64,000 nt of DNA from positions 327,663 through 391,662 of the forward strand of contig JAFZVB010000014.1 in the NCBI GenBank assembly GCA_017618055.1. Reading direction: 5' to 3'. Every line of letters begins with the position of its first letter. Position 1 is the first letter of the stretch. The stretch is from Clostridia bacterium. GTDB taxonomy: Bacteria; Bacillota; Clostridia; Christensenellales; CAG-917. Under the pieces are notes generated by a model. That model saw only the letters and a list, made by a program, of their open reading frames with translations. It did not search any database and was not told the DNA's origin. Made by a program: the position numbers and the translations under genes. Below, one piece after another: positions 58,956-64,000 of the stretch.

Positions 58956-59450
58956 TTAGCTCCAAAGTATATCGTCCTTAATCTTTTTAATCCATGCATC
59001 TATCTCATTTATGTCTGTGACGAGCTCATTTGTGTTGAGATCAAACTCAATAATGTTTTCATCTGCAAGTACAGCGCCTTTGCAAAGTGCTCTCATATCG
59101 CCAATAGCGTTCCCTGGTCTTCCTGCATGTGTTTGGAATAATACAACAATCTTTTCTTCTACACTAACAGAATTTAAGAATGTTCTAATAGCTGGAGCCA
59201 TTGAATACCACCATGTTGGTGTGCCAAGCATAATAACATCATAATCTTTTACATTCTTTGTTAATTGCTTAATTGGTGGCATATACTTTTCGTCTACTTC
59301 TTTCTTGCCTTGCTCATCTACAGTCTCAGCATTATAGTCTAATACTGTCTCAATTCTTTCTATATCTGCACCTGTTCCTTCTGCCAATCTCTTTGCTATT
59401 TTCTCAGTGTTTCCACCTTCTTTAGAATAATATAATACTAATGCTTTCAT
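58956..59450 (-). CDS. Flavodoxin
   Basis: 164 residues. The FMN phosphate loop is LVLYYSKEGGNTEKIAKRLAE, then MLGTPTWWYSMAPAIRTFLN with the flavin-stacking aromatic residues. It carries single electrons in place of ferredoxin, or serves a small flavin reductase role. Its promoter lies at 59479-59508, and it lies beside the riboflavin/FMN-controlled transporter gene. GGGGTGATGAT upstream of the ATG gives the ribosome-binding site. Confidence 0.88.
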   Translation of the reverse strand: MKALVLYYSKEGGNTEKIAKRLAEGTGADIERIETVLDYNAETVDEQGKKEVDEKYMPPIKQLTKNVKDYDVIMLGTPTWWYSMAPAIRTFLNSVSVEEKIVVLFQTHAGRPGNAIGDMRALCKGAVLADENIIEFDLNTNELVTDINEIDAWIKKIKDDILWS

Positions 59451-59478
59451 ATCATCACCCCTTTTTAAATGTGCATAT

Positions 59479-59508
59479 ATTATACTAATAATACTATATT
59501 TTTTTCAA
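59479..59508 (-). promoter_or_regulatory. Promoter of the flavodoxin gene
   Basis: On the minus strand TTGAAA (59508-59503), 18-nt spacer, TATAAT (59484-59479). Confidence 0.6.
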
Positions 59509-59511
59509 ATA

Positions 59512-60141
59512 TTATTGGTTTTCCTCTGTTTGAGGTGGTATTTCTTCCTTCCTTTTTCTTTTAAAAGAAAAGATCTCGTCTTGTATCCCTCTAACATACT
59601 TAATCCTTAATAGTGCTATGGTTAATAAATATCCCACAACTACAGATACAGATGCTTGTATGGAATCATTTGGAATATTTAAAAGTGCTGTTGCAAATCC
59701 AGATATAAACTCTCCTTCGTTTATTACGCCAAGCATTAATCCTGTTCCCACATAATATCCAAGCATCATCCAGAGACCAGAAACTATGAAGGCAATAACA
59801 AAAGAGACAAAATCTTTAACTTTTTCTTGCTTTGCATATTTTTTAAATATCCAAACAATAGTACCGCAAAGTATTCCCTCTATTCCTTTTACTACAAAAG
59901 TTAAAAGAGCAAAAGTTGGAGCATATACAATGTCTGCAAGAGCACTTCCAACACCACCACAGATAAATCCTCCAAGTGGTCCTAAAATACTAGATGCAAC
60001 AAATATTACTACATCTCCAAAATTTAAATATGCTCCCACACCAGTTGGCATAGGAATAACTACAATAATTGTGGCTACAAATACGAGTGCTATAAAAACG
60101 GCAAGGTATGCAATATACCTTAATGCAAAATTTCTTTTCAT
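59512..60141 (-). CDS. ribU: ECF transporter S component for riboflavin (RibU-like)
   Basis: 209 residues with six hydrophobic segments. IAYLAVFIALVFVATIIVVIPMPTGVGAYLNFGDVVIFVASSILGPLGGFICGGVGSALADIV has the pattern of ECF S components that bind a vitamin and use a shared energising module; the module genes are not in the window. Substrate is inferred from the FMN riboswitch that controls the gene, since riboswitch-linked S components take up riboflavin. The C-terminus (KRKRKEEIPPQTEEN) is a charged cytoplasmic tail. Confidence 0.85.
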   Translation of the reverse strand: MKRNFALRYIAYLAVFIALVFVATIIVVIPMPTGVGAYLNFGDVVIFVASSILGPLGGFICGGVGSALADIVYAPTFALLTFVVKGIEGILCGTIVWIFKKYAKQEKVKDFVSFVIAFIVSGLWMMLGYYVGTGLMLGVINEGEFISGFATALLNIPNDSIQASVSVVVGYLLTIALLRIKYVRGIQDEIFSFKRKRKEEIPPQTEENQ

Positions 60142-60307: not shown

Positions 60308-62167
60308 TTATTTTTTCTTTAGAAGATTTGTCATTGCAATTAGTACAGCAATTATAGTTACACCCGTATCTCCAAATATAGAAAGCCAAATGTTTCCTAG
60401 ACCAATTGCACTTAAAATAAGAATAGAAATCTTAACAGTTAAAGCAAAGATAATATTTATAAGAACCGTTATCATTGTACGTCTTGCAATCTTCTTTGCA
60501 GATACTAATGTAGATAGGTCATCTTTAACTAAAACCATGTCTGCACTCTCTATTGCAGCCTGGGATCCAATACCTCCCATAGCTATGCCAATATCTGCTC
60601 TTCTAAGGGATGGAGCATCATTAATCCCGTCTCCGATATATGCAACTGTTTTTCCTTTATCCGTACTTAATATAGCGTTATCTACCACTTTAACCTTGTC
60701 TTCTGGTAATAAGTTGGCATTGTAAGACTTTATTCCAACCGTATCTGAGACAGCCTTTGCTATGGCCTCATTATCTCCAGTAAGCATCCTAAGTTCACAT
60801 CCCATATCGTTTAAAGCCTTGCAAGCTTCTATAGAATTTTCTTTAATTTCATCTGCTATAATTACTCTTGCAACAAGCTTATTTCCTTTAGAAAGATATA
60901 CACACGTTCCTACGCTTATTTCTTCATCTACTTCAGATACAACCTCTTTTATATAATTGAGATTGCCTAGTCTATATTCTTCATGGCTTAATCCTTTACC
61001 GCCAATCTCGCTAACACTTAAATCTCTTAACTCTATGTTATTCTCTTTAGCATATTGTAGGATTGCCTTTGCTATTGGGTGGGATGAATATTGTTCCATA
61101 GAACAAATAATCTCTAGCACTTCTTTTCTATCTTCCTCTCCATACACCTTAAATTCTTGTACTACGAAATCTCCTTTTGTAATGGTTCCTGTTTTGTCTG
61201 TATAGAAGATTTTACACTTATTTAATAACTCCAAATAGTTACTACCTTTAACAAGAATTCCTTGTTTTGCTGCCGACCCTATACCACCAAAGAAACATAG
61301 TGGAACAGCAAGTACAAATGCACATGGACAAGATACTACTAAGAACATTACAGCTCTTCTTAGCCACTCTATCCAGTTTCCTGTTACTGCACCGCCTATA
61401 ATGAATAATGCTATTGCAGATCCTACCACAACAGGCGTATATACTCTTGCAAATTTTGTAATGAATGTTTCTTGTTTACTCTTTTTATCTGAAGCCTCTT
61501 CTACCATATTTAAGATTCTAGAAACAGCACTATCTTCATATATGGCTTTAACCCTTGCCTCTATTGCATCTCCTTGGTTTATTCCTCCAGATAATATTTC
61601 TTCCCCAATATCTCTTGATACAGGAACAGATTCTCCTGTTAGTGCGGAGAAATCTAAATATGTTTTTCCTTTTGTAATTATGCTATCTACAGGAACTTTA
61701 TCTCCGTTCTTAATAAGAATTGTATCTCCAATTACGAGTTCACTTGGATCTACTTCTATCCATTCTCCATCTCTTAATACAACCGCAATCTTAGGAGCCA
61801 TCTCAACTAAAGAAGATATACTCCTTCTAGACTTTCCAACTGCTATGTGTTCAAAGAGTTCTCCTATTGCAAAAAATAACATAACAGCAACAGCTTCCAT
61901 ATGCTCTCCAATTGCAAGAGCGGCTATAGAGGCTATTGTCATGAGGAATGTCTCGTTTAAAAAATCTAAATGTATTATTCCTTTAATAGATTCCCAAATT
62001 ACCTCATACGAAATTATGATATATGGAACTAAGAATAAAATTAATTGGTAATACCATGCAAGTTCTTCCCCATTCACCTTAACAAATTTAGTAATTAGAA
62101 TAACAGCAACATATATAATTGCCGTTATAATAATTTTTATTAAGTCTATTCTCTGGGATTTCGTCAT
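60308..62167 (-). CDS. Zinc/cadmium-exporting P1B-type ATPase
   Basis: 619 residues. No N-terminal HMA domain. Membrane metal motif SCPCAFVLAVPLC, phosphorylation motif DKTGTITKG, HP motif YSSHPIAKAI, LTGDNEAIAK and GDGINDAPSLRRADIGIAMG. The CPC motif and the SmtB-type regulator upstream indicate Zn/Cd/Pb rather than Cu. The ATG lies 2 nt after the ancestral stop codon of a small HMA gene, with no Shine-Dalgarno sequence of its own, so its translation would depend on the upstream frame (see the HMA entry). It ends beside the riboswitch leader. Confidence 0.93.
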   Translation of the reverse strand: MTKSQRIDLIKIIITAIIYVAVILITKFVKVNGEELAWYYQLILFLVPYIIISYEVIWESIKGIIHLDFLNETFLMTIASIAALAIGEHMEAVAVMLFFAIGELFEHIAVGKSRRSISSLVEMAPKIAVVLRDGEWIEVDPSELVIGDTILIKNGDKVPVDSIITKGKTYLDFSALTGESVPVSRDIGEEILSGGINQGDAIEARVKAIYEDSAVSRILNMVEEASDKKSKQETFITKFARVYTPVVVGSAIALFIIGGAVTGNWIEWLRRAVMFLVVSCPCAFVLAVPLCFFGGIGSAAKQGILVKGSNYLELLNKCKIFYTDKTGTITKGDFVVQEFKVYGEEDRKEVLEIICSMEQYSSHPIAKAILQYAKENNIELRDLSVSEIGGKGLSHEEYRLGNLNYIKEVVSEVDEEISVGTCVYLSKGNKLVARVIIADEIKENSIEACKALNDMGCELRMLTGDNEAIAKAVSDTVGIKSYNANLLPEDKVKVVDNAILSTDKGKTVAYIGDGINDAPSLRRADIGIAMGGIGSQAAIESADMVLVKDDLSTLVSAKKIARRTMITVLINIIFALTVKISILILSAIGLGNIWLSIFGDTGVTIIAVLIAMTNLLKKK

Positions 62168-62169
62168 GG

Positions 62170-62382
62170 TTATACTAATTCTGTGTCATCTATTTTTCTT
62201 GCTTGCTTTCTAACTTATTCTAGAACTGAATCAAACTTGTCGTCATCTATGTCTAAAGTTAAACGCATAGCCATAAAGTTTACTTGTGCAGAGTTTACAC
62301 CCTTAACACCATTAAGTTTCTTTTCAAGTTTCATTGCACAGTTTGGACAATCCAATCCTGTTAGTTTAAATACTTTTTTCAT
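62170..62382 (-). pseudogene. Small HMA-domain metal-binding protein interrupted by an in-frame stop
   Basis: Reading from the ATG at 62382, 55 codons give an HMA protein (MKKVFKLTGLDCPNCAMKLE with the CxxC metal site, through LTLDIDDDKFDSVLE), then a TAA at 62215-62217. The frame continues for 14 codons (VRKQARKIDDTELV) to a second stop at 62170-62172, exactly 2 nt before the ATPase ATG, and those residues fit the normal C-terminus of such proteins. So one base change, probably AAA to TAA, cut the protein short. It may still fold as the CxxC half is present. The ATG overlaps the arsR stop (ATGA). Confidence 0.75.
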
Positions 62383-62883: not shown

Positions 62884-64000
62884 ATGGGTGAATATAGTAA
62901 ATATATTTCAGAAAAACGTAGATCAGTTCCAACACCAAAAGATTTGGTAGATGAGAACGGAAAAGTAGTATTTGGAACTTTTGACAAAGAGTTCGAAACA
63001 ATGGAGCTTTTAAGAGCGAAGAAGCCAACAAGAGCGCCACAATTCTTAAACAAATTTAAGCTCACACTTTGGGAAGCAACAGAAGTACATCTTAAGAATG
63101 GTGTTCTCCTCGCTGTTGTTTGTGATATGGGTATCTTCGGAAAGCAATTAAATATGTTCTATGATAAGAGAACAAAGACAGTATATTGCTGGGATACACA
63201 ACAAAAATCCAAACTCACAACTATTGCTCCAAACCTTATTAACGGTGCTGTAGCAGAAGTACAAACAGATGTTGGTTTTGTTAAGTATGTTAACAGTTTT
63301 GAAAAAGGCGAAGCACAATTATCTGGTAAACATATTGGCAAATGCTTAATTAGCACACCAGAAGAATATGTAAAGTCCACAGGTTGGAAAGATAAGTTTG
63401 GCGAAGCAACAATTGAATATGACTTCCAATTAAAGAGAGTAAGCTTACCAAGCAACGTATCTATTCCTTTCCCATATTCAGATAATAGAACCTTATATAG
63501 CCAAAAAGATTTATTCAAGGCAGAAGGTAAATTAATTATCAATGGCGAAGAAATGCTTACAGATGAAGATTCGGCTGCAATTATTGATGACCACAGAGGT
63601 TATTATCCAAGAAAGGCACACTATGACTGGGTATCTACAATGGGAACAATCAATATTAATGGTGAAAAGAAGATGTTTGGTTTCAACTTAACACATAACC
63701 AATCCACAAACGAAGAAGACTACAATGAAAACTTAATCTTCTTAGAAGGAAGAACATCATTATTACCACCAGTTAAATTCACAAGATCCATTGAATCTAA
63801 AGACTATGTAAACTTCTCCGAATGGGAAGTAAAAGATGAATATGATATGGTAAATCTTAAGTTCAAGGTATATGGAGTAAACCCAATGATTATGCACGCA
63901 GGTGTTGTAAACATTGACTACTATGTAGCATGGGGCGAACTTGAAGGATATTTAAGAGATGAAGATGGAACCAAGTATGTTCTAGATGGAATGATGGGTA
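62884..64000 (+). CDS. DUF2804-like protein (3' truncated by the window end)
   Basis: The frame is open from the ATG at 62884 (AAGGGGG upstream) to the end of the window, at least 372 codons. FNLTHNQSTNEEDYNENLIFLEGRTSLLPPVKF and YYPRKAHYDWVSTMGTI are stretches I associate with the DUF2804 family, a widespread group of unknown function. No export signal. It is divergent from the zinc export operon and starts about 100 bp from that promoter. The family call is from memory of the pattern and needs a profile search. Confidence 0.7.
   Translation, partial: MGEYSKYISEKRRSVPTPKDLVDENGKVVFGTFDKEFETMELLRAKKPTRAPQFLNKFKLTLWEATEVHLKNGVLLAVVCDMGIFGKQLNMFYDKRTKTVYCWDTQQKSKLTTIAPNLINGAVAEVQTDVGFVKYVNSFEKGEAQLSGKHIGKCLISTPEEYVKSTGWKDKFGEATIEYDFQLKRVSLPSNVSIPFPYSDNRTLYSQKDLFKAEGKLIINGEEMLTDEDSAAIIDDHRGYYPRKAHYDWVSTMGTININGEKKMFGFNLTHNQSTNEEDYNENLIFLEGRTSLLPPVKFTRSIESKDYVNFSEWEVKDEYDMVNLKFKVYGVNPMIMHAGVVNIDYYVAWGELEGYLRDEDGTKYVLDGMMG

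Follow-up and report, generated by a model that had tools for sequence, protein, structure and literature searches.

An operon on the minus strand of the window (the whole stretch of 64,000 nucleotides that was analyzed) runs from an ArsR repressor gene through a gene for a small HMA protein to a P1B-type ATPase gene, and the second of these genes is interrupted by an in-frame stop codon. This raises the question whether the stop is genuine and what it means for the small protein and for the pump encoded downstream. The HMA gene starts with an ATG at position 62382, overlapping the TGA of arsR by 4 nt, and is read for 55 codons before a TAA occupies codon 56. Past this early stop, 14 sense codons (VRKQARKIDDTELV) lead to a second TAA, which is followed by the two bases CC and the ATG of the ATPase. 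Re-reading of the sequence confirmed all coordinates and distances of the initial annotation, i.e., the early TAA, the 14 codons, the 47 nt between early stop and ATPase ATG and the 2 nt behind the second stop (Table 1).

Table 1. Features of the arsR-HMA-ATPase operon (positions within the window).
Feature	Position	Strand	Remarks
ArsR/SmtB-type metalloregulator, 109 aa	62379..62708	-	First gene of the unit
HMA gene as currently read, 55 codons and premature TAA (62217-62215)	62215..62382	-	PF00403; sister genes 70 aa
HMA tail left behind the early stop: 14 sense codons plus ancestral TAA (62172-62170)	62170..62214	-	Same 14 residues in G001; tail conserved in family
Stretch 5′ of the ATPase ATG without Shine-Dalgarno pairing or predicted structure	62168..62187	-	Duplex +0.2 kcal/mol; MFE 0.0
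P1B-type heavy-metal ATPase, 619 aa, intact, without own N-terminal HMA domain	60308..62167	-	TIGR01512, TIGR01525, 4umv

The arsR gene is intact, as is that of the ATPase. Its product was identified as an ArsR/SmtB-type regulator by NCBIfam model NF033788 (88.6 bits, cut-off 55) and additionally by PF01022, and the gene showed no non-synonymous difference to that of the sister genome G001 in the 67 codons compared. The ATPase belongs to the Cd/Zn subfamily, scoring 510 bits with TIGR01525 (cut-off 346) and 456 bits with TIGR01512 (cut-off 313.5), and stayed below the cut-off of 397 for the copper model TIGR01511 (365 bits). Its translation contains CPC, DKTGT and GDGINDAP, which we take to be the motifs of P1B-type heavy-metal ATPases. 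The closest solved relative is the zinc-transporting ATPase 4umv (E-value 2e-87), and zinc is, judged by sequence, the likely cargo. The gene order is that of efflux operons of the CadA/ZntA type (P1B-2-like) that are controlled by ArsR/SmtB and encode their HMA protein separately, and a DNA match across the whole 811-base query span revealed the same order in a second sister genome, G002. In contrast to those operons, only here does the HMA gene stop at codon 56, with the ATPase start following 47 nt on. A literature search on stand-alone HMA proteins with P1B ATPases returned nothing at the term thresholds applied.

Downstream and on the same strand, the ATPase gene is adjoined by a flavodoxin-like gene and the S component of an ECF riboflavin-type transporter (58956-60141), while a DUF2804 gene (62884-63999) is divergent from arsR and runs off the window edge. 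At positions 1-834 of the window and upstream of it (G000:C1:326007-328478), a further P-type ATPase match has an HMA match on either side. These two HMA matches, the only other ones in the genome, are located on the same contig in one or more open frames of 843 aa around that ATPase, which might imply that it carries HMA domains at both ends.

The early stop could represent the normal, shorter end of the protein. The genus sample comprised three genomes, namely this one, G001 and G002, and DNA identity over the start of the operon amounted to 96% for G001 and 84% for G002. Both relatives contain an intact HMA gene of 70 residues that ends at the same final TAA 2 nt ahead of the ATPase ATG, and the 14 tail residues encoded here are identical in G001, ending at the same stop, which is more than expected by chance. 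Within the family, HMA matches at an E-value of 1e-8 were found in 28 of 43 genomes, with an internal stop in this genome only. All 27 other family homologues measured have 70-73 residues and a conserved tail, and in 24 of these 27 relatives a long open frame follows the HMA frame. At the level of the order, 189 of the 297 sampled genomes had an HMA match, and no other stop occurred among the matches listed. Since none of the measured relatives in the genus, the family or the listed order matches share such an end, a normal shorter end can be ruled out. The comparison with close relatives that the initial annotation had called for thus yielded no shared short end, and its views that the ancestral gene was intact and that the 14 residues are the family C-terminus are both supported by these data. 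A mobile copy on plasmids was also looked for, and none was found.

Codon 56 reads TAA in this genome, GAG in G001 and GAA in G002. The initial description of the event as a single nonsense mutation is accurate with respect to G002, from which the codon differs by one base, but not with respect to the nearer G001, from which it differs by two. Because of this second base, one of the two differences to G001 has to be assigned to a separate synonymous change. The simplest path through the three sequences would be an ancestral GAA, from which a single change gave TAA in this genome, whereas the GAG of G001 arose by a synonymous one. Ahead of the stop, the HMA gene differs from that of G001 by five synonymous changes and one conservative amino-acid change, and behind it by a single synonymous and no non-synonymous change. 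As the rest of the gene is almost devoid of amino-acid changes, the mutation is probably recent. The HMA sequence seems to bear no sign of long decay, with the 14 tail codons being too few to test for relaxed selection. For the ATPase, a dN of 0.0125 compared to a dS of 0.228 indicates constraint, a figure that averages both lineages and mostly predates the stop mutation.

Alternatively, the TAA may stem from an error in the consensus or in base calling, or the assembly may have picked up a minor strain variant, with the gene being intact in the population. To address the quality of the sequence, 407 kb of sequence from this genome, the window among it, were compared with 1.05 Mb of G001 using a hexamer-scored gene set, which yielded 205 G001 genes with an aligned counterpart here and 66,662 compared codons. 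Internal stops in this genome were present in seven of the 205 pairs, five of which contained them no further than 15 codons from the start predicted for the gene and were set aside as likely over-extended starts. The two pairs with a stop beyond codon 15 are the HMA gene and one doubtful gene of 132 aa (L097:2683-3078). At codon 84 of the latter frame, which had no Pfam match and a low coding score, a TGA here faces a TGT in G001. In the reverse comparison, stops were found in five of 204 G001 pairs, four of them near an end and one mid-gene. This last one is an in-frame TGA on contig 29 of G001 (L115:7894-8391), where codon 91 of 166 in the counterpart from this genome (L102:6612-7112) specifies Cys. 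The gene encodes a well-conserved thioredoxin-like [2Fe-2S] ferredoxin (PF01257), which is intact here and contains no stop in the matched part of its G002 copy. Since selA gave no match in any of the three genus genomes, selenocysteine at this TGA is unlikely, and a literature search on selenocysteine in the 24-kDa protein found nothing at the term thresholds applied.

A genome that is error-ridden or decaying overall is ruled out by this comparison. Mid-gene stops occur at a frequency of about one per 100-200 genes in both assemblies, so that a single base error in the HMA gene is possible. An error would also agree with the origin of the window from a 28-contig assembly (95.29% complete, 2.39% contaminated), with the kept and almost unchanged frame past the stop and with the finding that G001, too, has a mid-gene stop in a conserved protein. 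Nevertheless, with just two of 205 pairs affected beyond codon 15, such errors are rare, and codon 56 has a second base that deviates from G001. We consider an erroneous or minor-variant stop unlikely, and the stop allele is probably real and recent.

If the allele is real, the next question concerns the fate of its product. The 55 residues still match the Pfam HMA domain (PF00403) with 39.2 bits (cut-off 24.8, E-value 9e-10), covering positions 1-46 of the 62 profile positions only, whereas the whole frame, with one TAA inside, matches positions 1-57. The CxxC loop is retained as CPNC at residues 12-15. Residues 56-70 are absent, which makes the protein a truncated member without the complete ferredoxin-like fold. 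In an AlphaFold2 model of the intact G001 protein (mean pLDDT 90.4), the HMA fold has a helix 2 that spans residues 47-62 and ends in a strand at 68-69, which suggests that residues 56-70 matter to the fold. The best solved Foldseek matches of this model were copper chaperones and ATPase HMA domains (2qif, 4a48, 6ff2, CadA 2aj0). The intact sister protein would accordingly have a ferredoxin-like fold in common with the stand-alone CopZ metallochaperones and the N-terminal domains of CadA/ZntA (the ZntA domain 1mwy was matched by sequence), from which the copy in the window differs by lacking residues 56-70.

In the model of the truncated chain (55 residues, mean pLDDT 87.6), strands 1-3 and helix 1 are retained together with the CPNC loop and half of helix 2, although such models tell little about stability. 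What is predicted to be lost is the C-terminal strand along with the end of helix 2. Given the CPNC loop and the fair model confidence, the shortened chain might still bind metal, and together with the low number of amino-acid changes in the gene this would suit a functional, shortened HMA protein with a dispensable tail. Such a protein is quite improbable, as the 27 family homologues measured all have a conserved tail and a length of 70-73 residues, and as helix 2 extends further in the intact model, which also contains a C-terminal strand. From the models we rather infer that the 55-residue protein is unstable or poorly functional.

Production of some full-length HMA by read-through, which the initial annotation had left as a reservation and with which the intact and conserved frame past the stop would agree, found no support and appears hardly credible, since TAA terminates more of the sampled genes than any other stop codon (256 of 350, with TAAG at 39 of the 350 ends), ARAGORN listed no stop-reading tRNA among 23 tRNAs in the 407 kb that were sampled from 1,576 kb, and the divergence is so short that even an unused tail would look conserved.

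With regard to the ATPase, it had been proposed that its ATG lacks a Shine-Dalgarno sequence and that the ancestral HMA gene was probably coupled to its translation. The former is borne out by the anti-Shine-Dalgarno duplex calculated for the 20 nt before the start, which amounts to +0.2 kcal/mol (no pairing) compared to -6.0 kcal/mol for the HMA start. The latter agrees with the architecture of both G001 and G002, where the ATPase ATG is likewise without Shine-Dalgarno sequence and follows the HMA stop at a gap of +2 nt, an arrangement that, on sequence grounds, fits what is expected for termination-reinitiation. In a study on such gene pairs, overlaps or gaps of about -8 to +10 nt are the range used for termination-reinitiation (Huber et al., 2023; PMC10666635). 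Both sister genomes lie within this range, whereas the present gap of 47 nt lies outside. In the same work, early stops were put in the upstream genes of E. coli pairs, and at +38 nt two pairs were down by 80-90% and a third lost reinitiation entirely; gaps of more than 20 nt were taken by the authors as predictive of independent translation. The change is of the same kind as the one described here, namely an early upstream stop that widens the gap, but it was engineered there, while the present case is a natural one in a Clostridia-type genome, with a gap that went from +2 to +47 nt.

Weak starts are not confined to this gene: of the 346 starts sampled from this genome, 22.8% had a duplex weaker than -1 kcal/mol, as had 4 of the 13 pairs with gaps of 31-60 nt, the HMA-ATPase pair included. 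Among the family relatives, the ATPase start was set to the first ATG in the long open frame, so that some of the gaps may be wrong, and 3 of 28 loci gave no gap. No duplex stronger than -1 kcal/mol was found in 11 of the 24 relatives with a measured gap. In three of the 24, the gap spans 36, 48 and 55 nt, respectively, and the duplexes of +0.6, -3.9 and +1.8 kcal/mol point to no strong Shine-Dalgarno sequence. The region from -30 to +30 (60 nt) around the ATPase start has a minimum free energy of 0.0 kcal/mol and is the least structured of 345 sampled starts (median -4.7 kcal/mol). The corresponding values are -0.7 kcal/mol in G001, -0.3 kcal/mol in G002 and -3.7 to -5.6 kcal/mol in the three long-gap relatives. 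An alternative ATPase start within the 47-nt gap was rejected, the only other ATG there being out of frame.

The suggestion that ATPase synthesis may be reduced is weakened by these data. It is supported by the E. coli distance rule (PMC10666635), which predicts lost reinitiation already at +38 nt, but the long-gap relatives without strong Shine-Dalgarno sequence and the unstructured start point the other way. The chances of some reduction are about even, and a loss of the ATPase is unlikely.

Taken together, we consider it fairly probable that a lineage-specific nonsense mutation truncated the stand-alone HMA gene, that the 55-residue product is unstable or poorly functional and that the ATPase is still made. 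The mutation would have cut the gene of a soft-metal-binding protein in an uncultured Clostridia-type bacterium whose arsR-HMA-P1B ATPase efflux operon is otherwise ordinary. Lacking the last strand and the terminal part of helix 2, the product would be unstable or poorly functional, and the accessory metal-binding step would therefore be lost or weakened. Translation of the ATPase would start independently at its unstructured AUG, perhaps yielding less protein than when HMA termination took place 2 nt away. A more far-reaching version, which we put forward as tentative and rather doubtful, is that the early stop uncoupled a coupled HMA-ATPase pair, that the pump was kept via Shine-Dalgarno-independent initiation at an unusually unstructured AUG and that this lineage can do without the stand-alone metal-binding protein.

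Most likely, an accessory component was lost in a recent and ordinary event, and the pump probably still works. If real, the change would be a small natural experiment, with the stop located where laboratory coupling studies place theirs and with a stand-alone HMA protein lost next to a zinc/cadmium pump; otherwise, it would be an ordinary nonsense allele in a well-known kind of operon.
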